Shown in pieces: positions 1-14,649 of a stretch of 64,000 nt of DNA. The stretch covers positions 1 through 64,000 of the forward strand of contig CATKXR010000005.1 in assembly GCA_949840805.1 (NCBI GenBank), in the 5' to 3' direction. The stretch is from an uncultured Lachnospiraceae bacterium. GTDB lineage: Bacteria; Bacillota; Clostridia; Lachnospirales; Lachnospiraceae. Within the stretch, counting starts at the first letter, position 1. Each line of letters begins with the position of its first letter. The notes under the pieces were generated by a model. That model worked only from the letters and a program-made list of their open reading frames with translations. It ran no database searches and was not told the origin of the DNA. Made by a program: the position numbers and the translations under genes.

Positions 1-96
1 GTAAAAGAAATATTCACCAGGCAGAAACCGCCGAAACCGAAAGCCCAAAAACCGAAAGCTTCAAATGAGATTCTATCTGGTGGGATAGAAAAATGA
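1..96 (+). CDS. C-terminal tail of an unidentified protein (partial)
   Basis: An open frame runs in from the left edge and ends at TGA 94-96, leaving 31 residues. The tail is basic and proline-rich, with the repeated motif KPKAQKPKAS, and ends GGIEK. A good terminator follows at once, which supports a real gene end. The tail alone does not allow a family assignment; basic Pro/Lys tails occur in many DNA-binding and mobilisation proteins. Confidence 0.5.
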   Translation, partial: VKEIFTRQKPPKPKAQKPKASNEILSGGIEK

Positions 97-118
97 GGGG
101 CTCAAAAGAGCCCCCTAG
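97..118 (+). terminator. Rho-independent terminator after the partial gene
   Basis: GGGGCTC and GAGCCCC form a perfect 7-bp stem around an AAAA loop directly after the stop codon. The downstream bases are only moderately T-rich. Confidence 0.7.
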
Positions 119-251
119 TTATTATGCTTTAATTTCCCCATCCCGTGAAAAGTAACAGATGCATTTTTCTAAACTTTCATTTGTAAGTTTTCCTCTTGCA
201 TGCGGATATTCGTTATGGTAGAATATAGGCAAACAAAACAGAGGTTATGGA

Positions 252-1004
252 ATGAAGATGAACAAACGAACCAATCAGATCTTAGAATTTCTGACCGAAG
301 AGAATAAGATAGAAGTTTCCCTCCTTGCCCAACAGCTGGGGGTTTCCCAGGTCACGGTGCGCAAGGATCTTGATGAATTGGAAAACCAGGGCATCATTGT
401 CCGGGAACATGGTTTTGCCTGCTTAAGAAGCGCGGACAACCTCCATGGGCGCATTGCCTATCACTACGAAGCCAAGCAAAAGATCGCCGCGTGCGCCGCG
501 GGGCTTATCTGTGACGGCGACACGCTGATGATCGAAAGTGGAAGCTGCTGCGCCCTCCTGGCCCAGGAGCTGGCCGCTTCCCGAAAAGACCTGACCATTA
601 TCACCAACAGTGCTTTTATCGCTGATTATATCCGTGGAAGATCCAGCTTTCAGATCGTGCTTCTGGGAGGCATTTACCAGCAGGATTCCCAGGTTTTAGT
701 GGGTCCCATGATCCGTCAGTGCGTGGAAAATTTCTATGTAAAATACTTTTTTATCGGCACGGACGGTTATTCCAAACGCACCGGTTTTACCAACCGTGAC
801 CAGATGAGAGCCCAGGCCGTAAGGGATATGGCCCGCCAGGCAGAGCAGATCGTGATCCTGACAGAAAGTGAGAAATTTGCCCGGCACGGTATCGTCCCCT
901 TAAACCTGGGGGATTATCCCCGCATGGTCATTACAGACGGGCAGATCTCCGGAGAAATAGCGGATGAATTAAAACACAGTCAGATTGAGCTGATCACAAT
1001 CTGA
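252..1004 (+). CDS. DeoR/GlpR-family transcriptional regulator
   Basis: This is a 250-residue protein of normal length for the DeoR family. Residues 6-60 form the winged helix-turn-helix (SLLAQQLGVSQVTVRKDLDE), in which the family recognises operator DNA. Residues 75-235 form the sugar-phosphate-sensing domain, with the hallmark phrases IESGSCCALLAQELA, TIITNS and FIGTDGYS. The start is ATG 252 with GAGG at 241-244. The family usually represses a neighbouring carbohydrate operon, but no such operon adjoins it here, so the target is unknown. A strong terminator overlaps the last codons, so the gene is probably monocistronic. Confidence 0.9.
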   Translation: MKMNKRTNQILEFLTEENKIEVSLLAQQLGVSQVTVRKDLDELENQGIIVREHGFACLRSADNLHGRIAYHYEAKQKIAACAAGLICDGDTLMIESGSCCALLAQELAASRKDLTIITNSAFIADYIRGRSSFQIVLLGGIYQQDSQVLVGPMIRQCVENFYVKYFFIGTDGYSKRTGFTNRDQMRAQAVRDMARQAEQIVILTESEKFARHGIVPLNLGDYPRMVITDGQISGEIADELKHSQIELITI

Positions 1005-1014
1005 CCGTGTTTTT
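972..1014 (+). terminator. Terminator overlapping the end of the DeoR-type gene
   Basis: AAACACAGTCAGATTG pairs with CAATCTGACCGTGTTT across a 9-nt loop and is followed by a T-run. The stop codon (1002-1004) lies inside the descending arm. Confidence 0.85.
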
Positions 1015-1685
1015 CGTTGTCTGTTTCTATGTTCTATTTCTTATATTTTCCTGCCGTTTTCTTTCTAATTCCATATGATAGCAGCCAATAAGTTCCTTGG
1101 AAACCGCAGAATTTCTTTGTTAGAAAGAAAGAATTGCTACGGATTTATTCAAGCTAATTACATTATTTGCGGCAGTTTACCAAATGAGCTTCAAACCCTT
1201 TATACTTCCGGCACAGTGTTTCATGCCTTTTTGGGCAAGCGTTTATCTGATTGGCGGACAGCCGGAACTTTGTACGCAATACGGCATTATGCAGGTGCCT
1301 ACTTTGGCGTATCCGACATTAAATATTCGCCGTTTTTTCAGTAACCATATTTTCTGTCTCTGGGTATGTCCTCAGTGGAATCTTGACTCATACTCTCAAG
1401 CTGTTCTGCCAACAATATTTTTCGTCCTCCTTTAAGTTGTCGAGTAGTAAAGTCTATGATTACCTGTTTGTTCAATATCATCTCACCTCCCGCCATTTTG
1501 TATCAAAATTGTATTGACACGGATAAGATAAAATTAGACGAAAAAACAGAATTTTACAAAAATAAGATCGAGCGTGTAAACACCAAAGGGGCAGGATAGC
1601 CCGCCCCACATTAACAATTCCGTTTCGTCTCCTTATTTCCCGGTCAGGACAGGAGGACATGCTTACAGTAAAGCCGGTTTTTCCC
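1015..1685. other. Gene-poor interval with no confident gene
   Basis: No protein family was recognised on either strand in this 670-base stretch. Two overlapping forward frames of 83-89 codons exist, but neither has a clear ribosome site. The only ORF with a ribosome site is the 47-codon minus-strand frame listed separately. A GC-rich hairpin (GGGGC...GCCCC, about 1587-1607) lies downstream of the cyuA-type gene and could end its transcript, but its T-tract is poor. The stretch is AT-richer than its flanks and may be a decayed mobile or accessory segment. Confidence 0.4.
1338..1481 (-). CDS. Small hypothetical protein, 47 residues
   Basis: ATG at 1481 (minus strand) is preceded by GGGAGGTGAG, a strong but closely spaced ribosome site, and the frame ends at 1338. 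The product begins MILNKQVIIDFTTRQLKGG and is charged and soluble, with an acidic/basic C-terminal half. I do not recognise it. Its context in a decayed gene-poor interval suggests the remnant or leader of an accessory gene. The reading frame is short enough to occur by chance; the ribosome site is the main support. Confidence 0.35.
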   Translation of the reverse strand: MILNKQVIIDFTTRQLKGGRKILLAEQLESMSQDSTEDIPRDRKYGY

Positions 1686-2972
1686 TCAGCAGTCCTTCTC
1701 CATCATAATATTCAAAATCGTATGGTCCGTCTGCAGCATTCCGGGATTACTTACCTTGCCCATATTGCGGATCGATTCTTCCGGGGTAAAGCCGCAGATG
1801 CCGTCCGTCCCCTGAAGGACCACATCCGACACGGCAAGATAAGCGCACATCATGGCCGCGTTTGTGGCCGTAGCCAGCTTTAAGGCACAGCCGATCTTGC
1901 CGCCGTCGCAGACCATCCCCGTAAGATTGCCGCTCATATTGATGATGGCATATCCGATCTGGGTATCGTTTCCTCCAAGAAGCCAGACCATGGCGGCAGA
2001 GGCGGCCGTGGCGGCAGACACCCCGCAGCCGCAGGTGGCAGAAAGCTTTCCCGTATAAGATTTAATATATACATTGAGGGTGTGGGAAAACGCAAGGGCC
2101 TTTACCGTCTGTTCCCTGGACGCATGGACATGCTCCGCCATCTCCACCACCGGAAGAATCGCTGTAAGACCATGGTTTCCGCTTCCCGCACTGCTCATTA
2201 CCGTATAAGGGCAGCCGCTCATGCGGCCTTCCGCACTGCTTGCCACCCGCACCATAGCTCTGCTGAACAGGTTGTCCCCCATGGTGTCCGATCCCAGTTG
2301 TTTTTGAAGGGCAGACGCGATTCCGATTCCCACCGAATGATCCAGGCCGTAGTCCGCAAGCTTCCCGTTCATTTCCACGCCTTCTGTCATGTAAGCCAGT
2401 TCTTCCTCACTGCACTGGTCCACCACCGATTTGATTTCCGCCACAGACATTTCCATCAGCTTTTGATGAATCTCATCGTTGGAGCTGACCGCGTACTCCT
2501 TTTCCAAAAGCACCTCATGATTTCTCTTGGTCAGAACAATGTTGGCGTGGGTATTGCGTATCTCGCTGATTCCGATTCCGGCTGTGGTGATGATCTCCGC
2601 CCGCGCATAAAGCTGGGTCTCATTGTGGTTAATCATCACAATGACATGATGGGCCTCCGCCAGTTCAATGGCCTTCCCGGAAATCTCCTCATTGATGTCC
2701 TCCAGAAGCTGCAGGCTTTTCTCGGGATTTCCAAGGCAGGCTCCCAGGGCGGCAGCATATTTCAGTCCCACCCGGTCAAAGCCCGGAATCCCCACGCTCA
2801 TGCCGTTTTTATAGATGCCCGGATTCACCTCCACCTTCACAGACACAATCTCCCCGCCGATTGCATGGTAAGCGTCGGCCGCCGCAAGGGCAACGCACAC
2901 CGGCTCCGTACAGCCAAGGGCAGGAACCACCTCCTGATGCAGTAAAGTCAGTAACTCGGTTTTGGTAATCAT
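1686..2972 (-). CDS. cyuA: L-cysteine desulfidase family protein (CyuA/YhaM, UPF0597)
   Basis: A 428-residue protein of full family length. CyuA-type enzymes are Fe-S proteins that break L-cysteine into pyruvate, ammonia and sulfide in the cytoplasm; some relatives act on serine. The N-terminal [13 protein letters not shown] motif and the C-terminal [12 protein letters not shown] motif supply the conserved cysteines expected to hold the cluster. The glycine-rich GSGNHG segment around residue 270 is also typical. The start is ATG 2972 with AGAGGAGAG upstream. A -24/-12 sigma-54 promoter lies about 170 bp upstream, and a sigma-54 activator gene is divergent from it, so induction by a thiol is likely. 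Serine or D-cysteine as substrate cannot be excluded from sequence. Confidence 0.88.
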
Positions 2973-3143
2973 ATGAATCTCTCCTCTCTCTCGTTTTGTA
3001 TGTTTATGGTTTTATACCCGCAAATCAAAGGACCGGCCGGCATGTCCTCCTATTTTTCCAAAACGCCCTTTGATTTGATAGCCTTTGGAAAATAAACATC
3101 TTGACGGGTATAAAATATTCGATTCCCTACAATCCATATTAAA

Positions 3144-3159
3144 AGCAAAAATCATGCCA
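3144..3159 (-). promoter_or_regulatory. Sigma-54 (-24/-12) promoter of the cyuA-type gene
   Basis: On the minus strand the sequence reads TGGCATGATTTTTGCT, with exactly 10 bases between the invariant GG and GC. This is an excellent match to the TGGCAC-N5-TTGCW consensus. Transcription should start near 3132, leaving a leader of about 160 nt. The same 16 bases recur at 7717-7732. Confidence 0.85.
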
Positions 3160-3232
3160 AAAACCCGGTTCTGCCTTTTTTTATAAGTATAGATCCTGTT
3201 TCAGCCAACCCCATTTGCATATCTCTGGTGAC

Positions 3233-3296
3233 TATGGCTTGCGTCCGAAGAAACTTCTGCGTTTGTGCACGGAATATAGCTTGCATTCAAAAGAAA
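3233..3296. promoter_or_regulatory. Direct repeats, candidate upstream activator sites
   Basis: TATGGCTTGCGTCCGAAGAA at 3233 and TATAGCTTGCATTCAAAAGA at 3275 are imperfect direct repeats with start points 42 bp apart, four helical turns. They lie 75-120 bp upstream of the cyuA -24 box, where sigma-54 enhancer sites normally sit, and just before the activator gene. The second copy overlaps a weak GG-N10-GC element (3271-3284), which could be an autoregulatory promoter. Confidence 0.45.
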
Positions 3297-3341
3297 TCTA
3301 TGAGAAAATGGTTAAAATAAATGGTTGAATTGGAGAATGTT

Positions 3342-5426
3342 ATGGAAAAACCTGTGAGAAAAAAACAGATTGCCATTGTGAGCCTTGACGCCCGTGCAGG
3401 ACGGTCCTATGGGAGGGAAGTAGAATCCCTGTTCGGAGATTATGCCCACATCTCCCTCTACCACGTACAGGACGGCTCCGCCATGGGGGCGCTTCCCCGG
3501 GCGGACCTGTTTGTGGTGTCCACAGACGCCTATGGTTCTGCAGAAGAAGTGGCCCGCCATGTTCCCATAGGCTGCCAGACCATGGCCGTGGAGGTTTCTT
3601 TCCGCTGGAGTGAATTGAGAAAGCTAAAAGAAATTCCCCAGGGCAGCAAAGTGCTGTTTGTCAACATGACCCAGACCATGGCGCGGGAAGCCATCACCCA
3701 GCTAAACCAGTTTGGAATCAACCACATCCACCTGATTCCCTTCTATCCGGGAGCCGTTCTGGAAGAAGATGTACATTTGGCCGTGACCCCTGACGAAATG
3801 CGCTATGTGCCACAGGAAATTGAGACGAAAATCAACTTGGGGCAGCGTTCCTGTACCTCCGGCATGATGATTGAGATCGCCCTTCGCCTGGATCTTGCCT
3901 TTCTGCTGGAAACGGAACCTTTTCAGGAATATTTCAGGTCCATAGCCACCAGTAACTACAGCTTTGACCAAATGTTTGCCAAATCCATCCGCTTAGAAAG
4001 CCAGTTTCATATTCTTATGGAAACCTTGGAGGAAGGCGTTATCGGGGTAAACGAACGAGGAGAGATCTTTGCATGCAGCCATCATGCAGAAGAAATCACA
4101 AGAGTCAGCAATTCCCTGATTATGGGAAAGAGAGGGGAAAAGGTATTTCCCTATATCGATTTTTCCACATGCCTGAAAGAAAAAAGCCGTGTAAAAGCCC
4201 AGGTAAAAAAGATCAACGGCATTAACATCAGCGTGGAGGTGGTGCCTGTGCTGCGCCAGGACGCCTGTGTGGGGGCCTTTGCCATTTTACAGAAATTTAA
4301 TGATGTGGAGATGCGGCAGGGGGAGCTGCGCAAACAGCTTCTTCACAAAGGACATTATGCCAAATACGGCATGGGCGATATTATCGGAGAATCCCAGGCC
4401 ATTATCCGGGCCAAAAATATTTTAAAGCGGATGGCAGAAAGCGAAAGCCCGGTACTTCTTATCGGAGAAACGGGAACCGGCAAAGAACTGTTCGCCCACA
4501 GCCTCCACCAGGCATCCAGACGAAAAAAGGAACCTTTTGTGGCCGTCAATGTAGCCGCCTTTCCGGAAAATCTTCTGGAAAGCGAGCTTTTTGGCTACGA
4601 AGACGGAGCCTTTACAGGGGCAAAAAAAGGCGGAAGACCGGGGCTTTTGGAATTTGCCCATAAGGGAACCCTGTTTTTAGACGAAGTAGAGGGAATGAGT
4701 CCCATGCTGCAGATCAAGCTTCTCCGGGTGCTTCAGGAGCGGGAAATCATGCGGGTGGGAGGAAACCATATCATCAGCATTGATGTGCGCATTGTGGCTG
4801 CCACCAATGAATCCTTAGAACAGAAGGTGGAAGAAGGAAGCTTCCGCCGGGATTTGTATTACCGTCTCAATACTCTTCCGGTCATGATCCCGCCTCTTGC
4901 CGAGAGGGAAGACGACCTGTTTTTATTAATCCGCCATTTTCAGGAAGAACTGGGCAGTTCCTTTGAACTGACAGAACCAGTCAGGCAATTTTTAAAGCAA
5001 TATTCCTGGCCCGGCAATATCCGCGAGCTGCGCAACGTGGTGGAATACTTTATCTACACCGGCCATGAACACATTACCATGGAAGACCTGCCCCCTACCG
5101 TGTTAAAGGCACGCACCCCCCGTCTCCGGCCGGTCCTTGCCTCCCCGGCCGAAAAGTCCGGGACGCCCCAGTCCCACACCGACGCCTTCTGGTTTGTTTT
5201 AGGACAGCTTTATCAGGCGTCAGAAGAAGGCGCCTGCTTAGGCAGGGAAAAGCTCCTTGCCAGGGCCAAAAGCTCTTATCTTCCTGTGTCCCAGCAGGAA
5301 ATAAGAGCCATACTCACAGAAATGTCACAACAGGGCCTTGCCAGAGTCAGCCGGGGGCGGGGCGGAAGCCGGCTGACTCCCCAGGGACGTTCTCTGTGGG
5401 AAAATCGGGAAACACAGCTTAGGTAA
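3342..5426 (+). CDS. Sigma-54-dependent activator, PAS-AAA+ type
   Basis: The start at ATG 3342 is chosen because GGAG (3332-3335) is well spaced; an in-frame ATG at 3321 has no ribosome site. The product is 694 residues. Residues 1-200 form a ligand-sensing region resembling PrpR N-terminal domains. Residues 215-335 look like a PAS domain. Residues 350-585 are the AAA+ domain with Walker A GETGTGKE (about 374), the sigma-54 contact loop GAFTGA (about 423), Walker B GTLFLDEVEG and the arginine-finger region. The C-terminus (615-694) is not the usual Fis-type helix but resembles a winged helix (LTEMSQQGLARVSRGRGGSR). The three sigma-54 promoters nearby make it the probable activator of the thiol genes. 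Its inducer is not known; cysteine or a persulfide is inferred. Confidence 0.9.
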   Translation: MEKPVRKKQIAIVSLDARAGRSYGREVESLFGDYAHISLYHVQDGSAMGALPRADLFVVSTDAYGSAEEVARHVPIGCQTMAVEVSFRWSELRKLKEIPQGSKVLFVNMTQTMAREAITQLNQFGINHIHLIPFYPGAVLEEDVHLAVTPDEMRYVPQEIETKINLGQRSCTSGMMIEIALRLDLAFLLETEPFQEYFRSIATSNYSFDQMFAKSIRLESQFHILMETLEEGVIGVNERGEIFACSHHAEEITRVSNSLIMGKRGEKVFPYIDFSTCLKEKSRVKAQVKKINGINISVEVVPVLRQDACVGAFAILQKFNDVEMRQGELRKQLLHKGHYAKYGMGDIIGESQAIIRAKNILKRMAESESPVLLIGETGTGKELFAHSLHQASRRKKEPFVAVNVAAFPENLLESELFGYEDGAFTGAKKGGRPGLLEFAHKGTLFLDEVEGMSPMLQIKLLRVLQEREIMRVGGNHIISIDVRIVAATNESLEQKVEEGSFRRDLYYRLNTLPVMIPPLAEREDDLFLLIRHFQEELGSSFELTEPVRQFLKQYSWPGNIRELRNVVEYFIYTGHEHITMEDLPPTVLKARTPRLRPVLASPAEKSGTPQSHTDAFWFVLGQLYQASEEGACLGREKLLARAKSSYLPVSQQEIRAILTEMSQQGLARVSRGRGGSRLTPQGRSLWENRETQLR

Positions 5427-7125
5427 AGTTATACTCCGTCACCACAGGCGTCCGTTTCCCGTCTTTGTCATGAAAATACTCATAGAGGCTGATTCCCAGG
5501 AAAGAACCGGAAATATTCCTCACATTCTTATATCCATGTCCCTGAAGGCAGCAGATTGCATAATAGCTGCGCTGCCCGGTACGGCAGTGGATATACACCG
5601 GAATATCTCTGGGAATCTCCTCCATTCTCTGACGAAGCTGGCTTAAGGGAATGCTGTGTGCTTCTTTCAGATGCCCTGCCTCAAATTCATGTTCCTCCCT
5701 CACATCCACAATATAGGCTCCTTCTTCCACCAGACCGCGCACAGCCGTCACGGGAACCTGCCGGTAACAGCCGTTTAGCAGATTCAGGCCAATAAGAGCC
5801 GCCAGATTCACCACATCCTTTGCCGTGCCAAAGACCGGAGAATAACAAAGCTCCAGCTCCTTTAAATCTTCCAGGGTTCCTCCCATGGCAATCATCGCGG
5901 CGATCACGTCAATCCGTTTATCCGTATTGCCTTTCCCAATGGCCTGCGCCCCCAGGATTCTGCCTGTGGGGACCTCAAAGATCAGTTTCAGATTCATATA
6001 ATGGCTGTCTGGCATCAGCCCCACCTTGTCCGGCGCTATGGCATGGGCATACTCACAGGAAATCCCTGCTTCCTTTGCCGTCCGCTCATTTAACCCCGTG
6101 CAGGCTCCGTTCTGTCCGAAAACCCGGATGCAGGAAGAACCAATAAATCCGTGATTGACGTCAGAGCCCCCGTAAATATGGTTTGCCGCCGCCCTGGCCT
6201 GACGCTGTGCCGGTCCTGCCAACGCCAGCCGGCCCGGACGTCCCAGAAGCCGGTGAAAGCTTTCCACCGCATCCCCCACGGCATAGATATTCGGGTCCGT
6301 GGTCTGATAATTTTTATTTACCAAAATTCCCCCTGTGCTCCCTATACCCAGCCCCGCCTTACGGGCCAGATCCGTCTCCGGGGCCACGCCCACAGCCATG
6401 ACCACCACCTCTGCCTCAATGGTTTCCTCCTTCCCCTGTCTCTGAACCACAATGGCATCTTCCTTGATCTCCCTTAATGTGCCGGACAGACAGAGATGGA
6501 TTCCGTTGTCCATCATTTCCTTATGGAAAATCTGTACCATGTCAGAATCAAACGGCAGAAGGATCTGGCTGCTTCCCTCTACCAGCGCCACCGAAATCCC
6601 TGCCATCTTCAGATTCTCCGCCGTCTCCACACCGATAAATCCCCCGCCGATTACAGCCGCCTTTCTCACATGGTTCTGGTCTATATATTGCTTCAGCTTT
6701 TGAATATCCGCCACATTTCTTATGGAAAACACATGTTTCTTCCCGATTCCCTCAATGCTCCCCGGCATCACAGGATTCGCCCCGGGAGCCAGAATCAGCT
6801 TATCATAATACTCCTCATAGCACTCCCCTGTCTGCAGATTTTTCACCGTCACCTTCTTTTCCTCTGGATGGATCTGCGTCACCTCACTATTCACCCGCGC
6901 CTCAATATCATGCTGCCTGCCAAACTTCTCCGGGCTCATAAGCACAAGAGAATCACTGTTTTCTATGGTTCCGCTTAGATGATAGGGAAGACAGCAGTTA
7001 GAAAAAGAAACATGCTCCCCTCTCTCAAACATAAGAATCTGGGCATGGGCATCCAGCCTTCTGACCCGCGCAGCCGCCGAAGCCCCTCCTGCCACTCCGC
7101 CTACAATTACAATCGTTCTTTCCAT
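5419..7125 (-). CDS. cdr: CoA-disulfide / persulfide reductase with C-terminal rhodanese domain
   Basis: A 568-residue flavoprotein with the FAD fold at the N-terminus (VIVGGVAGGASAAAR), the single-cysteine active site FSNCCLPYHLSG (Cys44/45), a second NAD(P)H-binding glycine motif AVIGGGFIGVE, and the FAD-closing motif IYAVGDAVE. A rhodanese domain follows (465-555) with the cysteine loop HCRTGQRSY. Fusions of this kind reduce CoA disulfide, CoA persulfide or polysulfide with NAD(P)H in the cytoplasm. The gene converges with the sigma-54 activator and overlaps its last 8 bases. AAAGGAG lies before ATG 7125. The nearest convincing promoter is a sigma-54 site about 590 bp upstream, beyond a tandem array and a large inverted repeat. 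Handling of sulfide from the neighbouring lyases is inferred. Confidence 0.88.
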   Translation of the reverse strand: MERTIVIVGGVAGGASAAARVRRLDAHAQILMFERGEHVSFSNCCLPYHLSGTIENSDSLVLMSPEKFGRQHDIEARVNSEVTQIHPEEKKVTVKNLQTGECYEEYYDKLILAPGANPVMPGSIEGIGKKHVFSIRNVADIQKLKQYIDQNHVRKAAVIGGGFIGVETAENLKMAGISVALVEGSSQILLPFDSDMVQIFHKEMMDNGIHLCLSGTLREIKEDAIVVQRQGKEETIEAEVVVMAVGVAPETDLARKAGLGIGSTGGILVNKNYQTTDPNIYAVGDAVESFHRLLGRPGRLALAGPAQRQARAAANHIYGGSDVNHGFIGSSCIRVFGQNGACTGLNERTAKEAGISCEYAHAIAPDKVGLMPDSHYMNLKLIFEVPTGRILGAQAIGKGNTDKRIDVIAAMIAMGGTLEDLKELELCYSPVFGTAKDVVNLAALIGLNLLNGCYRQVPVTAVRGLVEEGAYIVDVREEHEFEAGHLKEAHSIPLSQLRQRMEEIPRDIPVYIHCRTGQRSYYAICCLQGHGYKNVRNISGSFLGISLYEYFHDKDGKRTPVVTEYNFT

Positions 7126-7170
7126 CTTATTCTCCTTTCTTTTGGATCCTTGATATTTTTATCTCGTATT

Positions 7171-7463
7171 TTTTGATGTTCTCTTTTGGTGTTCCCTTTG
7201 GCATTCTTTTTTAGCGTCCCTTTATACACTCTCTTTTAGCGTTTCCTTTGACACTCTCTTTTAGCATCCTCTTTGACACTCTCCTTCAACATCCTCTTTG
7301 GAGCTCTCCTTTAGCATTCTCTTTGGCACTCTCCTTCAACATCCTCTTTGGCACTCTTCTTTAGCATTCTCTTTGGCACTCTCTTTTAGCATTCTCTTTG
7401 GCACTCTCTTTTAGCATCCTCTTTGGCATTCTCTTTTAACATCCTCCTTTAACACCCCTTTTA
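7171..7463. repeat. 25-bp tandem repeat array, about 11-12 copies
   Basis: The core CTTTGGCACT or a close variant recurs at 7196, 7246, 7271, 7296, 7321, 7346, 7371, 7396 and 7421, an exact 25-bp period. Each unit has two similar halves; on the minus strand they read AAAGAGAATGCTA and AAAGAGAGTGCC. Copies degrade toward both ends. The array lies in the probable leader of the CoA-disulfide reductase gene. It cannot encode one repeated peptide, because 25 is not a multiple of three. Confidence 0.9.
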
Positions 7464-7523
7464 ATTTCTCCCCCCACAGTCATCTTCCGTCACAATTCCA
7501 GTTTCGGCCCTGCCAGAAAAGCA

Positions 7524-7661
7524 GCCTGGACGTGTCCCCTATTCCCATGAGGGGCCTCTGACCCGCCGGTCCTTAGCTCGCGTCCTTTGCGAGCTTAGTA
7601 CCGCTGCAGGGTCAGCAAGAGTGAGAACGTACCCTCATGGGAATAGGGGACACGTCCAGGC
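7524..7661. repeat. 138-bp nested inverted-repeat element
   Basis: Outer arms 7524-7553 and 7632-7661 are perfect 30-bp inverted repeats (arm core GGACGTGTCCCCTATTCCC). Inside them CTGACCC (7558-7564) pairs with GGGTCAG (7609-7615), and AGCTCGC pairs with GCGAGCT at the centre (7575-7595). The whole can fold into one long three-tiered hairpin. No transposase is encoded. It could be a miniature mobile element, a structured RNA in the reductase leader, or a bidirectional terminator. Confidence 0.85.
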
Positions 7662-7716
7662 GGACCTTCCGCAATCCCCATAAACAACAAGCTCCCCACT
7701 GCTATCCATATTATAC

Positions 7717-7732
7717 AGCAAAAATCATGCCA
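7717..7732 (-). promoter_or_regulatory. Sigma-54 promoter facing the CoA-disulfide reductase gene
   Basis: The minus strand carries TGGCATGATTTTTGCT, identical over 16 bases to the promoter at 3144-3159, and both are followed by ATATGGAT near the expected start. The reductase start codon is about 580 nt further on, so its leader would contain the inverted repeat and the 25-bp array. Confidence 0.75.
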
Positions 7733-8160
7733 GAATCACAACAAAACACCTTACCTCTCACTTTCTCCCAGCCGTTCCAAAATTTCAGCAAATCCCCTTA
7801 TCCCATCACATCCCACCCCCCAAGCCAAATCAATCACCAAATCACCCTCCTCAGACAAACTTGTTCCTCTCCTCCCCCACCCAATAAACCCTGACACCCG
7901 CCATTTGGTTAAACAATCACCCTAATTGGTCAAAACATCCCCCATTTTCCCCTTCTCCTCACCACCTCTCCCCCGCCGCCCCTTGTGCTCCCCCTGTCTT
8001 CCCTGCCTCTCTCCCACCCCCATCCTCCCCTTATCCCTCCCATCCCCCCTGAATATAACTACAAATCCCTCCCCATTCACCCATTAAATCCCCTCATTCA
8101 CCCCCATTAAATAAGGAAACCAACCACCAAAAAATATTTTTTTCTCTTTTCATCCGACTT
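7733..8160. other. C-rich intergenic stretch upstream of the patB operon
   Basis: No gene is supported here; the stretch is strongly pyrimidine-rich on the plus strand. TTGGTTAAACAATC (7905) and TTGGTCAAAACATC (7926) form a direct repeat 21 bp apart, two helical turns. They lie about 240 bp upstream of the sigma-54 promoter at 8161, so they may be activator sites. This is tentative, because the motif differs from the repeats near 3233. Confidence 0.35.
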
Positions 8161-8177
8161 TTGGCACACCTTTTGCT
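8161..8177 (+). promoter_or_regulatory. Sigma-54 promoter of the patB-transporter-ridA operon
   Basis: TTGGCACACCTTTTGCT matches the -24/-12 consensus at every key position, with 10 bases between GG and GC. Transcription should start near 8188, giving a leader of about 120 nt before the patB-type gene. Confidence 0.88.
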
Positions 8178-8307
8178 CATTAATCTGGTATCATCACAAA
8201 TCAAACTGGCCGGCAGAAATATTTGTGAACAAGAACCGTAATGATTCCGCCTCACCGAATCGTTGCCAACCATCTTAATCAATCCAACGAGAGGAGCAAA
8301 AACACCT

Positions 8308-9483
8308 ATGAAATACGATTTTGACCAGGTAATCGACCGCAGCGCCAACCGTGCGGCAAAGTATGACGAAAGAATCAAAAAATTCGGCACCAACGATGTG
8401 ATCCCCCTATGGGTGGCAGATATGGACTTTAAAACCGCCCAGCCCATCATTGACGCAATGAAAAGAAAAGCAGAAGAAGGGATCTGGGGATACACCTCCC
8501 GCCCCGACAGTTACTTTGACGCCATCTGCGGCTGGCAGGAACGCCGCAACGGCTGGAAGATTGACAAAAGCTTAGTGAGCTGGTCTCTGGGCGTGGTGCC
8601 TGCCCTGTCGGCCATTGTAAAGATTTTCAGCAATCCCGGTGATAAGGTCATGATTCAGACCCCTGTATACTCTGAGTTCTATGATGTAACCGAAGCCTGG
8701 GGACGGGTTGTGGTGGAAAACCAACTGGTGGAACAGGACGGACACTGGACTATTGACTTCGCAGATTTTGAGGAAAAAGCCAAAGAGGCAAAGATCTTCC
8801 TGCTTTGCAGCCCCCACAATCCCCTGGGTATTGTATGGACAAAAAAACAACTTCAGAAAATGGCGGAAATCTGTATTGCACATGACGTTCTCCTGGTCTC
8901 CGACGAGATCCACTCCGACCTGATCTTCCACGGGAAAAAGCACCTTCCCACAGCCATGGTATCAGAGGATATCGCAGGAAAAATCATAAGCTGCATTTCC
9001 GGGACAAAGACCTTTAACCTGGCCGGCATCCAGGCGTCCACCACCGTATTTCCCAACCTGGAGACAAAGGAAAAATTTGACCGGTTCTGGATGAACATGG
9101 ACATCCATCGGAACAATGCCTTCAGCTCCGTGGCCATGGAAGCCGCTTTCAACGAGGGAGAAGAATGGCTGGAACAGCTTTTGGAATACCTGGACGGCAA
9201 CTTTACATATGTAAAATCCTTCTGCGAAGAACACATTCCCCAGATTAAGGTCAATGTGCCGGACGCCACGTATCTGATGTGGCTGGACTGCCGGGAGCTT
9301 CACATGGATAACCAAACCCTGCGGGACTTTATGATCAAAAAAGCCGGGCTTGGGTTAAATGAAGGCTATACCTTCGGCAGAAGCTTAAGCGGTTATATGC
9401 GCCTGAACGCCGCCTGCCCCAGAAGCACCTTAAAACAGGCCATGAAGCAGTTAAAAGAAGCCGTAGACGCAAACACAAGATGA
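8308..9483 (+). CDS. patB: PatB/MalY-family PLP-dependent C-S lyase
   Basis: The start at ATG 8308 follows GAGGAG (8291-8296); 15 further in-frame codons upstream lack a ribosome site. The product is 391 residues, full length for the fold-type I aminotransferase-like C-S lyases. Hallmarks are IPLWVADMDF near the N-terminus, SPHNPLGIVW, VSDEIHSDL and the PLP-lysine segment SGTKTFNLAG (about residue 233). These enzymes cleave cystathionine, cystine or other S-conjugates to a thiol or persulfide, ammonia and pyruvate through 2-aminoacrylate. It heads a sigma-54-driven operon, 13 bp from the transporter gene. The exact substrate is not visible; cystine or cysteine conjugates fit the neighbours. 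Confidence 0.9.
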   Translation: MKYDFDQVIDRSANRAAKYDERIKKFGTNDVIPLWVADMDFKTAQPIIDAMKRKAEEGIWGYTSRPDSYFDAICGWQERRNGWKIDKSLVSWSLGVVPALSAIVKIFSNPGDKVMIQTPVYSEFYDVTEAWGRVVVENQLVEQDGHWTIDFADFEEKAKEAKIFLLCSPHNPLGIVWTKKQLQKMAEICIAHDVLLVSDEIHSDLIFHGKKHLPTAMVSEDIAGKIISCISGTKTFNLAGIQASTTVFPNLETKEKFDRFWMNMDIHRNNAFSSVAMEAAFNEGEEWLEQLLEYLDGNFTYVKSFCEEHIPQIKVNVPDATYLMWLDCRELHMDNQTLRDFMIKKAGLGLNEGYTFGRSLSGYMRLNAACPRSTLKQAMKQLKEAVDANTR

Positions 9484-9496
9484 AAGGGGTATTCTT

Positions 9497-10747
9497 ATGA
9501 ACGCAAAGAAAATATGGGACAGCTATAAATTTCCGTTATTATTGTTAGGTGGTATTTTTACAGGAGCCATCCTGGGCATGATCTTAGGAGAGAAGGCCAA
9601 GGTCCTGGCCCCTCTGGGAGACATTTTCCTCAATCTGATGTTCACCATCGTGGTTCCCATGGTCTATGTGTCCATCACCACCGCCGTGGGAAATATGGTC
9701 AACATGAAACGTCTGGGAAAAATCCTGGGAAGCCTGGTGTGTACATTCATTGTCACCGGCGGGTTTGCCGCAGCCCTGGTTCTGGTTGTGGTCAATATCT
9801 GGCCTCCGGCGGCAAACACGGCAATCACTATGGGCGCGGCGGAAATGGCGGAAACCTCCAGTATCAGCGACATGATCGTAGGCTCTCTTACGGTCAATGA
9901 TTTCAGCGGCCTGATGAGCCGGAGCAACATGCTTCCCATTATCGTATTTGCCATCATGTCCGGCTTTGCCGTGGCCAAATGCGGCGGTGAGGAAAGCTGG
10001 GCCGGAAAGCTTCTCAACAACTTAAACGATATCATTATGCTGATGGTTGACATGATCATGAAGCTGGCTCCCATTGGGCTGGGCGCGTATTTTGCCAACC
10101 TGGTAGGGGAATTTGGCCCTCAGTTAATTGGGGATTACGGACGTACCATGCTGGTCTACTATCCCATGTGCGCTGTCTATGTACTGGTCTTCTTCCCCCT
10201 GTACAGCTACTTTGCAGCAGGCAAAACAGGCATCAACCGGATGCTGAAAAATATCTTCAATCCGGCTGTCACCGCATTCGCCACCCAGAGTTCCGTGGCC
10301 ACCCTTCCTGTGAACATGGAAGCCTGCAAAAAAATCGGGGTTCCGGAAGACATCAGCAACATTGTACTTCCCATGGGTGCAACCATGCACATGGACGGCT
10401 CTGTGCTGTCCTCCATCACCAAAATTGCCTTTCTGTACGGCGTGTTCCAGATGCCTTATACCGGGGCAGGCACCTATGCCATGTCCATCGTGGTAGCTAT
10501 TTTAAGCGCTTTTGTCCTGTCCGGCGCCCCCGGCGGCGGCTTAGTAGGCGAGATGCTGATCGTCAGCCTGTTCGGCTTTCCTGCAGAAGCCTTTCCTCTC
10601 ATTGCCACCATTGGATTTTTGGTTGACCCGGCAGCTACCTGTCTGAACGCCAGCGGAGACACCATCGCCTCCATGATTATCGCCCGTCTGGTGGAAGGAA
10701 AAGACTGGCTGGAAAAACGGATTGCAAGCGGCCAGGTGGACGCCTGA
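9497..10747 (+). CDS. Dicarboxylate/amino acid:cation symporter (DAACS family)
   Basis: A 416-residue membrane protein with about eight transmembrane helices and two re-entrant hairpins. The substrate-site signatures are TQSSVATLPV (the SSSxATLP-type loop), MGATMHMDGSV (usual NMDGT, here HMDGS) and LVDPAATCLNASGD. Family members import glutamate, aspartate, serine or cystine with Na+ or H+. AAAGGGG lies before ATG 9497. The HMDGS change and the position between a C-S lyase and RidA suggest an amino acid such as cysteine/cystine or serine, rather than dicarboxylates; this is inference. Confidence 0.88.
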   Translation: MNAKKIWDSYKFPLLLLGGIFTGAILGMILGEKAKVLAPLGDIFLNLMFTIVVPMVYVSITTAVGNMVNMKRLGKILGSLVCTFIVTGGFAAALVLVVVNIWPPAANTAITMGAAEMAETSSISDMIVGSLTVNDFSGLMSRSNMLPIIVFAIMSGFAVAKCGGEESWAGKLLNNLNDIIMLMVDMIMKLAPIGLGAYFANLVGEFGPQLIGDYGRTMLVYYPMCAVYVLVFFPLYSYFAAGKTGINRMLKNIFNPAVTAFATQSSVATLPVNMEACKKIGVPEDISNIVLPMGATMHMDGSVLSSITKIAFLYGVFQMPYTGAGTYAMSIVVAILSAFVLSGAPGGGLVGEMLIVSLFGFPAEAFPLIATIGFLVDPAATCLNASGDTIASMIIARLVEGKDWLEKRIASGQVDA

Positions 10748-10781
10748 TGAATATAGATACCCTTTTTGTACGAAACACCTC

Positions 10782-10911
10782 TGTTCCAAGGGAACCTGCA
10801 TGAACATGCATCCGTTGGAACAATATCCGCGGGCATAGCCATTTGACAACATGTTTCCCTGCTTTCAGGGAAAAGACCCATCATTTGTCAGATAAGGACG
10901 CCCGCGGGTAT
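10782..10911. repeat. Nested hairpin element inside the patB operon
   Basis: The gap of about 213 bases between the transporter gene and ridA is densely palindromic. GTTCCAA...TTGGAAC (10783-10820) encloses TGCATGAACATGCA. ATATCCGCGGGC (10823-10834) pairs with GCCCGCGGGTAT (10900-10911), and enclosed are TGACAA/TTGTCA and the stem TTCCCTG-CTTT-CAGGGAA (10855-10872). It may stabilise, process or attenuate the message, or be a repetitive palindromic element. Confidence 0.75.
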
Positions 10912-10960
10912 CACAAAAAATCCAGTATCACAAATTATCATGGAAAGGAGACCATTTATC

Positions 10961-11332
10961 ATGAATGTAGTAGAAACCAACAACGCGCCTGGAGCCATCG
11001 GACCCTATTCCCAGGGATTTGAGATCAACGGACTTGTATTTACCTCCGGGCAGATTCCCGTAAACCCCCGGACCGGGGAGGTCCCCGGCGGCATTGCCGC
11101 CCAGGCGGAGCAAAGCTGCCAGAATGTAGAAGCAATCCTCACCGCCGCCGGAAGCGGGCTGGAATGTGTATTCAAAACCACCTGCTTTTTGGCCGATATG
11201 GGAGATTTTGCAGAATTTAACCAGGTATATGCCAAATACTTCACCTCCAAGCCGGCCAGAAGCTGTGTGGCGGTAAAAGCCCTTCCCAAGGGAGTTCTCT
11301 GTGAAATCGAAGCCATTGCCGTAAAGCAGTAA
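10961..11332 (+). CDS. ridA: RidA-family enamine/imine deaminase
   Basis: The start at ATG 10961 has GGAAAGGAG ten bases upstream. The 123-residue product is full length. Family marks are APGAIGPYSQG at the N-terminus, TSGQIPVNP, and the C-terminal ARSCVAVKALPKG with the catalytic arginine, followed by CEIEAIA with the conserved glutamate. RidA hydrolyses 2-aminoacrylate and related imines, which otherwise inactivate PLP enzymes. Both the PatB-type lyase in this operon and a cysteine-degrading PLP reaction release such intermediates, so its job is probably to clear them. Confidence 0.93.
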   Translation: MNVVETNNAPGAIGPYSQGFEINGLVFTSGQIPVNPRTGEVPGGIAAQAEQSCQNVEAILTAAGSGLECVFKTTCFLADMGDFAEFNQVYAKYFTSKPARSCVAVKALPKGVLCEIEAIAVKQ

Positions 11333-11346
11333 AATTTGAAACAGGG

Positions 11347-11366
11347 AAGGGGTTTCATAACCCCTT
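11347..11366 (+). promoter_or_regulatory. Hairpin between ridA and the glutaredoxin-like gene
   Basis: AAGGGG-TTTCATAA-CCCCTT is a 6-bp stem directly after the ridA stop, with no proper T-run. It may mark a processing or partial termination point. Confidence 0.5.
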
Positions 11367-11423
11367 CGGTTCCTTTCACAGAAAGACAGATTATAAAAAT
11401 AGAAGAAAAAGGAGATTATGACC

Positions 11424-11675
11424 ATGAAAGTTACTGTAGTTGGAAGCCATTTATGCCCGGACACCCTCTATGCCCTCAACAAACTGGTAGAGGCAGGGGT
11501 AGACATCGAATTTAAAAATCTTTCCGCCTCTCTGCCGGATCTGAAGGTTTATTTAAACCTTCGCGACCAGGACCCTCTGTATGAAAAAGTAAAAGCAGGC
11601 GGCGGAATCGGGATTCCCTGCTTTCTGTTAGAAGACGGGACAAAAACACTGAATTTAAAAGATGTACTGAAATAA
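11424..11675 (+). CDS. Glutaredoxin-like small thiol protein
   Basis: A product of 83 residues (85 from the in-frame ATG at 11418). ATG 11424 is preferred because GGAG (11411-11414) is then nine bases away. The thioredoxin-like fold is suggested by the N-terminal strand VTVVGSHLCPDT with a Cys-Pro-x-Thr active site at the expected place, and by GIGIPCFLLEDG, whose cis-proline loop holds a second cysteine. Glutaredoxins with one active-site cysteine act on mixed disulfides or persulfides. As the last gene of the sigma-54 operon it probably handles thiols released by the lyases. The partner reductant is unknown. Confidence 0.75.
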   Translation: MKVTVVGSHLCPDTLYALNKLVEAGVDIEFKNLSASLPDLKVYLNLRDQDPLYEKVKAGGGIGIPCFLLEDGTKTLNLKDVLK

Positions 11676-11747
11676 AAAAGGAACGGTCCGCATGGGATTA
11701 TCGAATCTCAGCTTGTCCGAACCTGCCTGCTATGGGAATATGTGCGA

Positions 11748-12623
11748 TTATAGAGATTTCCGTAATATTTTGATTTGCAGAAAATCCCGTAACCATGCGG
11801 GGTTACAGTGTTTTGTATAAATATAAGGCTCCGTAGCTCCAGTCGGGCCGGTTGGCCCAGTGGCCCCATTTGCTCCTGCCGCCCCGGTTGGGCCGGTCGC
11901 CCCAGTGGCCCCATTTGCTCCTGCTGCCCCGGTTGGGCCGGTCGCTCCAGTCGCTCCTGCCGCCCCGGTGGCTCCAGTCGCTCCCGTTGCCCCAACCGGA
12001 CCTTGAATTCCCTGGGGTCCCTGAGGTCCCTGGGCCCCCTGCATTCCCTGAGGTCCCGTAGCTCCGGTCGCCCCAGTTGGACCGGTGGCTCCGGTCGCTC
12101 CCGTTGCTCCACTTGGGCCAGCAGCCGTCACCAGATCAAAATCCGATGAAACACCAGGAATTCCAACCGGATAATCCCGGTTTGCCCGGTAAAGATAACC
12201 ATTTAGATACACCAGATCCCCTTCCAGGTACTGTCTGGCCGGATCATAGACTCCTGCCGTACTTAATCCCGGTCCCATCGGGCCAGTCGGGCCGGTAGCT
12301 CCCGTTGGTCCGGGGAACCCCTGGGGTCCGGCCGGTCCCGGGAATCCCTGAGGTCCCATTGGTCCGGTCGGGCCAACAGGCCCCCGCGGTCCCCGGCAGC
12401 AACAGGACGGACCTGGTGGAAACGGCGGCCTTGGCGGGCCTGGCGGCATCGGTGGACCTGGCGGCATCGGTAGACCTGGCGGCATCGGCGGACCTGGCGG
12501 CATCGGTGGGCCTGGCGGCATCGGCGGGCCTGGTGGAAACGGCCGGTTTTGCTGGCAGCAGCATCGTCTCCTTCCACATCCTTGATTTCTCCCGTCAAAG
12601 GAATCTATAGAATTACAATACAT
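11748..12623 (-). CDS. Collagen-like surface protein with a CBM5/12-like insert
   Basis: A 291-residue protein. Residues 1-25 are Cys/Arg-rich ([11 protein letters not shown]). Residues 26-72 are proline-rich ([11 protein letters not shown] repeats). Two collagen Gly-X-Y blocks, mostly GPTGATGAT, flank a 45-residue insert ([16 protein letters not shown]) that resembles CBM5/12 or BclA-type linker domains. AAAGGAG precedes ATG 12623. There is no signal peptide, as in spore-coat and exosporium collagen-like proteins that are assembled from the mother cell. The last 30 residues leave the Gly-X-Y pattern ([13 protein letters not shown]) and run across a hairpin, so the true C-terminus may be lost. 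The glycosyltransferase gene just upstream could decorate its threonines. Confidence 0.85.
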
Positions 12624-12724
12624 ACGATTACTCCTTTCATCTTCTCCCCGGCAAACCTCTAAAAGGATGGCTATTCAAAAATCCCCTGTTCCTGTTTCCT
12701 TTTTTAAGCTGTCGGTTTACTATA

Positions 12725-13840
12725 TCATATGTACTTGCCGTAATTTGGTTCGTCCATCCTGTCAGTCTTCCCATATCCCATTTTCCTGAAATATTGTTCA
12801 TTCCATTGTACTTCTTTTGCCTTTGGCTTTCTTGCACTGGATCTCTGATGGTACTCATAAGCCTTTTCCCTGTTTCCCATCCGGTCATAACATACGCACA
12901 GGTTAATCTCCGGCAGATACCCATAATAATCCCATCGTATAAACCCTCCTCCTTTGTCTGAGGGCTGCTGTCTTAAAGCCGTTTCATACCAAAAAACCGC
13001 CTGTTCCCATTTTTCCTTTCCCTGAAAATATCTTCCCAGCTCAAAACATGCCTCCCCCCTGGGCGTGTCATAAAGGAAACTCTTAAAAAGCGCCTGCACA
13101 CTCTCTTTTTCTTTTCCCAGCATCCGAAAACACTCTGCCAGATTCAAACACGCCTCGATCTTATTCTCCCTCCATCCGTCGCCTTCCAAAAATTCCTCCA
13201 TCACCTGCACCGCTTCTTCATACCGGTTATGAGAAAGCAGTTCCCTCCCGTAATAAAACAGGCTCCTCCCCGAAAGAGATTCTCCTTCCTCTATCATTTT
13301 CTCATAAATTTTCAAGTTCCGGTCCCTGGACCCGGACCCTTCTTTTTTGTGGGAAATCACAATATCTGAATAGATTATCTTTCCCCGCGGCGCGATAGCC
13401 TCATGAACCCTTCCTTCCCAGTAAAAACCCCTCCCGTTCTTTACCAGCCGTTCCCGATAATAGGAAAACAAGGATTTCCCGTCCGAATCTTCCGCTATGG
13501 AATATTTCATCATTACCACATCCGTGTCCGGCTCCAACTCCTGCTTCAGCTTCTTTATCTTCTCCTGATTCTCCTCCGTCACCACGTCATCTGCATCCAG
13601 CCACATGCAATAATCCATGTTTGCCTTGGAAAACGCCTCGTTTCTGGCTGCGGCAAAATCGTCCCTCCAGGCAAAATCATATACCTTTCCCCCATATTCT
13701 CTCCCGATCTCCTTTGTCCTGTCGCAGGATCCCGTATCGACAATTATAATTTCATCCGCAAAAGAACCGGCCGCCTTAAGGCAGCGTCCCAATACCTGCT
13801 CCTCATTTTTTACAATCATGCACAAACTAATAGTAATCAA
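12725..13840 (-). CDS. Family 2 glycosyltransferase with C-terminal TPR-like region
   Basis: A 371-residue protein. The GT-A domain covers residues 1-200, with ISLCMIVKNEEQVLGRCL, DTGSCDRT and the metal-binding MWLDADD. Residues 205-340 form helical TPR-like repeats (GRSLFYYGRELLSHNRYEEA, ACFELGRYFQGKEKW). The best start is TTG 13840, with AGGGCGG upstream; no ATG precedes the conserved N-terminus. Proteins of this design transfer sugars to surface or spore glycoproteins. The collagen-like gene 100 bp downstream on the same strand is the likely acceptor. Confidence 0.85.
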   Translation of the reverse strand: MITISLCMIVKNEEQVLGRCLKAAGSFADEIIIVDTGSCDRTKEIGREYGGKVYDFAWRDDFAAARNEAFSKANMDYCMWLDADDVVTEENQEKIKKLKQELEPDTDVVMMKYSIAEDSDGKSLFSYYRERLVKNGRGFYWEGRVHEAIAPRGKIIYSDIVISHKKEGSGSRDRNLKIYEKMIEEGESLSGRSLFYYGRELLSHNRYEEAVQVMEEFLEGDGWRENKIEACLNLAECFRMLGKEKESVQALFKSFLYDTPRGEACFELGRYFQGKEKWEQAVFWYETALRQQPSDKGGGFIRWDYYGYLPEINLCVCYDRMGNREKAYEYHQRSSARKPKAKEVQWNEQYFRKMGYGKTDRMDEPNYGKYI

Positions 13841-13902
13841 AATGTCCGCCCTGGCATATCTTTTTAGAATATGCTATGAGCGGACACCTTAAATAGTTTC
13901 CT

Positions 13903-14649
13903 TTACTTTTTCACTTCCTGCGCTATATAATATACTCTTTCGCTGTCTTCTTTCGGCACATTCCTGCCCCATGCCTCATATACAGCCAGCATTTTAAGCC
14001 CTGCTTCCTTTAATGCCTGCTTCACGGTCTCGGTCTCATATGCCCGCTGAAAATGAGTTTCTTCATACTTCCGGTATATCCCGTCGCCTTCTTTTACAAA
14101 CAAAGTCAGGTCATATTCATTGACCTGGGTTTCCTTATCATAATAATTCTCCCAGATAAAACTGCCCTCTTCCCTGTTCTCCGCAATGGTCTGATCCCCC
14201 AAAAGCTCCTGGTACTTATAAGGAGTGTTCATATCAAAGACAAATAAGCCTCCCGGATCCAGGTAATTGTTTACCAGGCTGAACACCTGCACCAGATCCT
14301 CATATTCTGTCAGATAATTCATGGCGTCACATATACTGACTACCGCGCCCACCGTACCATACAGCTCAAATTCTCTCATGTCCTGCTGCAGATATAAGAT
14401 CCTGCCATCTGAATTCTTCTCCATGGCAACCCCCAGCATCTCTCCGGAAGAATCCACGCCGATCATATCATATCCCTTTTTTTCCAAAAGCCGCGTCAGC
14501 TTCCCTGTACCGCAGCCCAGATCCAGCACCAGCCCGTCCTTTACGCCATGTTCCTGCAAAAGACCGGCTATATGGTCTGCCCACTCTTCATAGGGGATAT
14601 TATCCATGAACAAGTCATAAACTTCAGCAAATCCCGTATATGCATCCAT
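13903..14649 (-). CDS. Class I SAM-dependent methyltransferase
   Basis: A 248-residue protein. The SAM-binding motif LVLDLGCGTGKLTRLL is at residues 41-56. Motif II (MIGVDSSGEML) and the acidic post-motif (QQDMREFEL) follow. The C-terminal half has the beta-rich lid seen in the YqeM-like and glycine/sarcosine-type methyltransferases of Clostridia. AAAGGGAACACAG lies before ATG 14649. The substrate cannot be read from sequence. It lies 150 bp downstream of the SEC-C gene on the same strand. Confidence 0.85.
   Translation of the reverse strand: MDAYTGFAEVYDLFMDNIPYEEWADHIAGLLQEHGVKDGLVLDLGCGTGKLTRLLEKKGYDMIGVDSSGEMLGVAMEKNSDGRILYLQQDMREFELYGTVGAVVSICDAMNYLTEYEDLVQVFSLVNNYLDPGGLFVFDMNTPYKYQELLGDQTIAENREEGSFIWENYYDKETQVNEYDLTLFVKEGDGIYRKYEETHFQRAYETETVKQALKEAGLKMLAVYEAWGRNVPKEDSERVYYIAQEVKK

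Follow-up and report, generated by a model that had tools for sequence, protein, structure and literature searches.

The closest described counterparts of the locus reported here are systems for cysteine or C-S bond breakdown. In C. difficile the cdsB promoter has been mapped, and cysteine induction of cdsB needs both SigL and CdsR (Gu et al. 2018, PMC5767170). Soutourina et al. 2020 (PMC7438776) also list the cdsB promoter, and an effect of SigL on cdsB was not seen in their conditions. CdsR-cdsB and XcyR-malY regulons were predicted by Nie et al. 2019 (PMC6615313), the latter with malY-pepT-hyp as target, a distinct motif and genera that include Flavonifractor and Lachnoclostridium. In E. 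coli, cyuPA with its regulator CyuR supplies an importer and a desulfidase for anaerobic cysteine catabolism (PMC9040844). Here we describe a locus in a 64,000-nucleotide stretch (the window; positions 1 to 64,000 of contig CATKXR010000005.1) from an uncultured Lachnospiraceae bacterium. It likely encodes a regulon for cysteine-type uptake, C-S cleavage and sulfide release, in which one sigma-54 activator serves three promoters.

From left to right the locus carries cdsB on the minus strand, the activator gene on the plus strand, cdr on the minus strand, and patB, DAACS, ridA and a gene for an 85-residue protein on the plus strand (Table 1). Three -24/-12 promoters had been proposed in the initial annotation, with the activator gene between them. 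That arrangement holds, the two minus-strand sites lying exactly where they had been placed and the plus-strand site one base further on. A scan of the whole assembly (5.0 Mb in 152 contigs, about 90% complete, the window being contig C5) with the exact pattern TGGCAYNNNNNTTGCW (TGGCAY-N5-TTGCW) found 15 sites, against 2 for the reversed-pattern control. Three of the 15 fall within 5 kb at this locus, where simple arithmetic from the genome density gives an expectation of about 0.015; all three are intergenic and each faces one of the three transcription units. When up to two mismatches were allowed, the pattern TGGCACNNNNNTTGCW was not enriched in the window (24 observed against 32.7 expected from shuffling), and the promoter signal is that of exact sites and their conservation, not of two-mismatch enrichment. 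The assembly has one rpoN gene, elsewhere than at this locus. A relaxed-pattern search upstream of the genome's two distant CdsB paralogs (contigs C3 and C7) found no -24/-12 site. The fourth exact -24/-12-like site of the window, at 34511-34526 within a 209-residue open reading frame (ORF) on the opposite strand, is probably due to chance.

The promoters are conserved in related genomes, the search for which had been proposed together with them. Scanning named genomes by alignment to the N-terminal part of the activator gave 78 loci, by record title mainly from Lachnospiraceae and Oscillospiraceae, with Tissierella simiarum and metagenome-assembled genomes of vaguer title also represented. 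Many of these loci stop at contig edges; 71 hold patB (at least 60% identity), 60 DAACS, 53 the gene for the 85-residue protein, 49 a close cdsB, 35 ridA and 7 a close cdr. When one mismatch is tolerated, a site is present 20-320 bp upstream of patB in 69 of 71 related loci, of cdsB in 48 of 49 and of cdr in 6 of 7, compared with 2.1% of 4560 random positions. In the six loci with a cdr site it lies 42-136 bp from the gene. Internal genes of the operon, which serve as controls, have such a site in 1 of 50 (DAACS), 0 of 35 (ridA) and 0 of 52 cases (the 85-residue protein), and distant relatives in 1 of 11 (cdsB) and 0 of 3 cases (cdr). In Tissierella (L124) the order is different, but the genes, both promoters and the cluster of upstream sites described next are all retained.

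The promoter regions also share an upstream activating sequence (UAS). Counting dyads in 115 non-redundant regions out of 126 brought out TGGTTAA/TGGTCAA, and expectation maximization (EM) gave the motif AAWTGGTYAAA, which occurs at least once at 8 bits in 69 of 70 patB, 46 of 47 cdsB and 6 of 8 cdr regions, all three regions of the window among them. Both here and in the cross-validation below, a promoter had to have no more than one mismatch to be counted, and its region had to be longer than 100 bp. In the window, the cdsB copies precede the cdsB -24 box by about 153 and 166 bp, and the pair common to the divergent cdr and patB lies about 177 and 198 bp from the cdr -24 box and 232 and 253 bp from the patB -24 box. 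Most adjacent copies stand in direct orientation at a spacing of 9, 13, 18 or 21 bp; some pairs are inverted. For cross-validation, the motif was learned anew from random starting seeds, with Oscillospiraceae regions as the sole training set, and tested on 56 regions from other loci, a split made from record titles that left L100 (Clostridia) in the training set and L127 (Tannerellaceae) in the test set. The resulting matrix, applied at 10 bits, detected one or more sites in 50 of the 56 test regions and two or more in 47; among 840 random 320-bp stretches the corresponding shares were 7.9% and 2.1%. The window's three promoter regions are among those tested and carry two sites each. The locus of Schaedlerella arabinosiphila DSM 106076 (L082) likewise shows all three promoters together with UAS pairs.

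Where the UAS lies depends mostly on the promoters. Of 49 loci with a divergent cdsB, the window included, 48 have it where the activator begins, versus 3 of 28 loci without one (the count omits L103, at a contig start, and L157, where no activator match was long enough); outside the training set the share is 12 of 13 divergent-cdsB loci. In the sole miss among the 49 (L130) the cdsB and activator pieces abut, probably at an assembly joint. One of the three loci with a UAS and no divergent cdsB, L083, begins just upstream of the activator with a minus-strand -24/-12 site there, so a truncated cdsB is likely. In Tissierella the activator gene is at the far end, and the UAS cluster stands between cdsB and patB with none at the activator. 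The divergent-cdsB counts and Tissierella together indicate that the UAS mostly follows the promoters and not the activator gene. A mainly autoregulatory role for the UAS at the activator start was considered and rejected, as the motif is missing there in 25 of the 28 loci without a divergent cdsB. Taken together, the conserved promoters and a cross-validated UAS that tracks divergent cdsB support the predicted sharing of one sigma-54 regulon under the adjacent activator.

The activator consists of an alpha/beta N-terminal domain, a PAS domain, an AAA+ domain with GAFTGA and a winged-helix-like C-terminal domain. Pfam recognizes the PAS, AAA+ and lid domains. In the structure model the N-terminal 195 residues form a well-predicted alpha/beta domain, residues 201-314 a PAS fold, and the C-terminal 105 residues a predicted winged-helix topology (mean pLDDT, the predicted local distance difference test score, 86) with weak Foldseek matches (best E 3.7e-3). 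The N-terminal domain has no PrpR_N match in Pfam and no convincing match in solved structures; in a fold search the matches listed were taken up by the PAS domain. This is the build of an enhancer-binding protein, with a regulatory N-terminal part and a C-terminal domain predicted to bind DNA. Its start is more likely the ATG at 3342 than the listed 3321, because GGAG precedes 3342, 3321 falls inside a UAS repeat and 3342 fits the orthologs better. Cys178 of the N-terminal domain and Cys316 of the PAS domain are invariant in all 72 aligned clade members. None of 16 more distant activators with the same N-terminal domain has either cysteine, one of them being gapped at 316. The two residues may have a role in sensing.

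This architecture bears on whether the activator could be the ortholog of CdsR, which would make the locus a version of the known C. difficile system enlarged by further genes. Both are sigma-54 activators beside a cysteine desulfidase gene with a -24/-12 promoter (PMC5767170), but the Fis domain HTH_8 was found above its cut-off in all three CdsR-type proteins beside cdsB that were tested with Pfam, and at E≤0.5 was absent from the window activator. The nine CdsR-type proteins align with the latter just over PAS/AAA+ or AAA+. In a midpoint-rooted tree from one FastTree run on chosen sequences (23 of the window clade, 9 CdsR-type and 16 others), the window clade and the CdsR-type proteins are each monophyletic with support 1.0. 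One locus, L249, encodes a 591-residue activator and has a cdsB promoter core identical to the published C. difficile core; judged from these sequences it is probably the C. difficile CdsR system or a near relative. Its cdsB region has no UAS match at 10 bits, while four of the nine CdsR-type regions do match. Altogether, orthology with CdsR is very improbable.

The initial annotation had assigned the neighbouring genes to families, and for the desulfidase, the CoA-disulfide reductase (CoADR)-rhodanese, PatB, DAACS and RidA these assignments were borne out by Pfam and TIGR models. CdsB, with its family match, has L-cysteine desulfidase 9fsl as best solved relative (E 3.6e-29), and GCTE, CGC and CDGGK.GCALKLA align. 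Cys23 and Glu25 are given as the catalytic residues of cysteine desulfidase (PMC12647591). The window protein has the catalytic Cys and Glu, in GCTE, and the CGC motif, and is predicted to degrade cysteine. The best solved relatives of the cdr product include the CoA-disulfide reductase 3icr (E 1.1e-136) and the CoA-persulfide reductase 8a56; because it scores 412.4 bits on the CoA-disulfide reductase equivalog TIGR03385, below the cut-off of 578.8, it is filed only as a CoADR-rhodanese-like fusion. The fusions 3icr, 3nta and 8a56 have the same two-domain build, and alignment with 3icr shows agreement in the SF.NC.LPY stretch and in the C..G.R stretch of the rhodanese; for the window protein such an activity, and a place in a cysteine regulon, are presumptive. 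In the DAACS transporter D-P-A-A-T stands where an aligned aspartate transporter has D-M-A-R-T. The Arg of the latter, which we take to bind the side-chain carboxylate of the substrate, is Ala here, so the substrate is probably a neutral amino acid. An ORF with collagen-like Gly-X-Y repeats lies directly 3' of the operon (11748-12623, minus strand).

Table 1. Position of genes, promoters and upstream sites in the window.
Feature	Position	Strand	Basis or sequence
cdsB/cyuA-type L-cysteine desulfidase, 428 aa	1686..2972	-	PF03313
cdsB -24/-12 sigma-54 promoter	3144..3159	-	TGGCATGATTTTTGCT, exact TGGCAY-N5-TTGCW
UAS for cdsB	3303..3332	+	two direct AAWTGGTYAAA copies 13 bp apart, just before the activator gene
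Sigma-54 activator	3342..5426	+	PF00158, E 4.4e-68; GAFTGA
cdr, CoA-disulfide reductase-like + rhodanese fusion, 568 aa	5419..7125	-	PF07992 + PF00581
Probable cdr promoter, -24/-12 site	7717..7732	-	TGGCATGATTTTTGCT; 592 bp from gene
UAS pair common to divergent cdr and patB	7900..7937	+	TTTGGTTAAAC and ATTGGTCAAAAC, 21 bp apart
patB operon -24/-12 sigma-54 promoter	8162..8177	+	TGGCACACCTTTTGCT
patB, pyridoxal phosphate (PLP)-dependent C-S lyase, 391 aa	8308..9483	+	TIGR04350, 467.8 bits vs cut-off 340
DAACS (SDF family) amino acid symporter	9497..10747	+	PF00375, E 1.3e-98
ridA, enamine/imine deaminase family	10961..11332	+	TIGR00004, 164 bits vs cut-off 106.25
85-aa protein, glutaredoxin-like by motif only	11418..11675	+	GSHLCPDT, GIP/GVP stretch conserved

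The gene families, the promoters, the common motif and the conserved linkage can be read directly from the sequences; binding of the activator to the UAS, the direction of its action, the inducer, the substrates and transcription in vivo are what we infer. In the mechanism that we propose, the activator would sense a cytoplasmic sulfur signal, presumably cysteine, cystine or a persulfide, through its N-terminal domain and PAS region and bind the repeated AAWTGGTYAAA sites by its C-terminal winged helix. Its AAA+ ring would then act on sigma-54 polymerase, opening it at the three -24/-12 promoters, those of cdsB, of cdr and of patB-DAACS-ridA and the last gene of that operon. DAACS would import a neutral, probably sulfur-containing amino acid, whose C-S bond would be split by two chemistries, the Fe-S enzyme CdsB acting on cysteine and the PLP enzyme PatB on cystine or S-substituted cysteines. 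RidA would deaminate 2-aminoacrylate, and the CoADR-rhodanese fusion would reduce the resulting disulfides or persulfides. A role in persulfide metabolism, like cysteine or cystine as the substrate, is presumed.

Several observations weigh against this reading. The related loci share ancestry, and their counts do not represent independent events. The promoter is missed, with two mismatches, at patB in L091 and L114 and at cdsB in L130, and with three mismatches at cdr in L103, one of the seven orthologs. Six of the 56 test regions have no UAS match at 10 bits, namely patB in L127, L129 and L136, cdsB in L086, and two of the eight cdr regions (L085 and L158). The UAS background is higher in dinucleotide shuffles, of which 20% hold one site or more and 3.9% two or more. 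A double-UAS pattern, devised after the window had been inspected, matched three times in the assembly and its reversal twice; two of the three matches belong to this locus, and the third, on contig C42, has no -24/-12 site nearby. L148 and L158 are true exceptions that have a UAS at the activator start and no divergent cdsB, and autoregulation through it is possible there. The matches in the four CdsR-type cdsB regions are single sites, and single matches in AT-rich DNA are therefore weak. Of the more distant activators with patB, L219 has the promoter and two UAS matches and L230 the promoter and three, but L228 has the promoter and none, and L224 has neither. A comparison of Cys178 with the CdsR-type proteins is not meaningful, as there is no alignment at that position. 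PatB family members cleave several substrates. The glutaredoxin of the initial annotation did not stand, since none of six members of the 85-residue family tested matches a glutaredoxin or thioredoxin family, or any other, in Pfam at E≤1; a search of solved structures likewise gave this protein no convincing relative.

The cdr promoter also counts among these difficulties, since 592 bp part it from its gene, an interval that holds both a 25-bp repeat array and a 166-bp palindromic element. Neither this distance nor the UAS repeats figured in the initial annotation. The array (7180-7446) comprises some 11 degenerate tandem repeats, whose units hold TTTGGCAC followed by AGCA and resemble a -24/-12 site whose spacer exceeds the usual length by two bases. 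The palindromic element (7503-7669, in the presumed cdr leader) has perfect 30-bp arms at 7524-7553 and 7632-7661. It is a dispersed intergenic repeat, with a 91% copy at positions 87263-87428 of contig C7 of the same assembly (G000:C7:87263-87428) and another on C4 split by about 160 bp. An Rfam scan of positions 1-14000 gave just two sub-threshold miRNA matches, both on the palindrome. It could be, then, that only patB and cdsB are true targets and that the link to cdr is a relic in this genome, severed by the inserted repeats, as the leader and the small number of loci with a close cdr at 60% identity or more (7 of 78, many of which stop at contig edges) might suggest. However, the window retains an exact promoter and the UAS pair, and in 6 of 7 orthologs the promoter lies close to the gene, which makes the loss of cdr from the regulon unlikely.

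The substrate is a separate question, in that cysteine, cystine and S-substituted cysteines are indistinguishable from sequence. The solved relatives of PatB carry the names C-S or cysteine-S-conjugate beta-lyases, and the transporter site looks neutral. In addition, the same activator clade precedes a second type of operon that carries, instead, an AbgT-family transporter and an M24 peptidase along with PatB and a CoA-disulfide reductase-like gene (Pfam-tested in L155; judged by ORF size and order in L148 and L158), which suggests peptide- or conjugate-derived substrates. These features would suit a pathway for S-substituted cysteines or other beta-substituted amino acids in which hydrogen sulfide is a by-product. 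Against it, a member of the cysteine desulfidase family, cdsB, comes with a promoter of its own 48 times out of 49, and 48 of the 49 divergent-cdsB loci have the shared UAS where the activator starts. We regard a substrate other than cysteine or cystine as somewhat unlikely, and retain a cysteine-type regulon as the preferred interpretation.

The second operon type also bears on the relation to XcyR. It resembles 'malY-pepT-hyp, peptide degradation' and may be what Nie et al. saw as malY-pepT-hyp; the genera to which they assign XcyR, with its malY target and a motif of its own, include Flavonifractor and Lachnoclostridium (PMC6615313). The two activators are possibly the same or sister groups. 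If the window activator belongs to the XcyR group, the patB part of the regulon has been predicted already, with cdsB and cdr as further members added in gut Lachnospiraceae and Oscillospiraceae. On the other hand, the operon with DAACS, RidA and the glutaredoxin-like protein is not in Table 1 of that paper, where cdsB is assigned to CdsR only. We consider membership in the XcyR group quite possible, though short of probable, and the patB half of the regulon may thus have been predicted before. For XcyR itself, Nie et al. 2019 was the only relevant paper among the matches listed from the open-licence literature.

Within the genus, 13 of 24 genomes, the own genome counted, hold a match to the activator at E≤1e-90, the one in G258 being distant at 36%. 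In a sample of 250 genomes of the family, 28 have a match at E≤1e-60, mostly to the AAA+ domain, and five, again with the own genome, reach at least 54% identity over most of the protein. The closest named relatives by activator are Schaedlerella, Hungatella and similar, which makes the bacterium a probable member of the gut Lachnospiraceae. Oscillibacter copies nest near the window's clade in the tree, and this, together with the patchy occurrence, suggests possible horizontal transfer. Among the 78 loci, eight without a divergent cdsB hold a distant CdsB relative in or beside the operon (L115, L121, L122, L126, L127, L129, L133 and L151), and four have another CoA-disulfide reductase-like gene inside it (L088, L091, L097 and L114). 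This non-orthologous replacement of CdsB and CDR supports a functional coupling. Other variants were seen. In L142 ([Clostridium] asparagiforme) patB is flanked by two DAACS genes, the first with its own -24/-12 site 171 bp upstream; L119, L120 and L131 have a second, distant PatB-DAACS pair (35-38% identity), divergent, on the other side of the activator. The activator copies in L055 and L062 were flagged with one in-frame stop each and are possibly decayed copies or sequencing errors. As a tentative generalization, and a doubtful one as a whole, we suggest a winged-helix, Fis-less family of sigma-54 activators, sensing thiols or persulfides via Cys178 and Cys316, patchily spread and independent of CdsR, that co-ordinates a transferable module for cysteine/cystine fermentation and sulfide release in gut Lachnospiraceae and Oscillospiraceae.

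Neither the combined regulon nor the UAS came up among the matches listed from the open-licence literature, and on control of cysteine breakdown in Lachnospiraceae or Oscillospiraceae these matches gave only the sigma-54 prediction paper (PMC6615313). The suggestion in the initial annotation that such a system may be undescribed therefore needs narrowing: sigma-54 control of cdsB is known from C. difficile (PMC5767170) and CdsR-cdsB regulons were predicted (PMC6615313), and what looks new is the activator type, its DNA motif and the combined gene set. Gut hydrogen sulfide that derives from amino acids is of interest to medicine, and the locus offers one specific activator, a precise DNA target and a delimited set of genes, all testable in a cultured commensal.

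Compared with the known systems, the nearest likeness is to SigL-CdsR-cdsB of C. difficile, in which a sigma-54 activator also adjoins a cysteine desulfidase gene with a -24/-12 promoter. CdsR, however, is described as a 591-residue PAS-AAA-Fis protein and is reported for cdsB, whereas the window activator differs in its N- and C-terminal domains, clade and UAS, and its set adds patB-DAACS-ridA with the glutaredoxin-like gene, and cdr. This suggests that there are two different types of activator through which sigma-54 controls cysteine desulfidase. XcyR shares with the window activator a sigma-54 mechanism and a PatB-like target, malY, in Flavonifractor and Lachnoclostridium among others; its regulon is a computational prediction, and the published targets in PMC6615313 are without cdsB, cdr, DAACS, RidA and Grx. 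The E. coli cyuPA system resembles the locus in pairing an importer with a desulfidase for cysteine catabolism, but CyuR is a cysteine-activated regulator that acts with Crp (PMC9040844), whereas the regulator in the window is a sigma-54 AAA+ activator.

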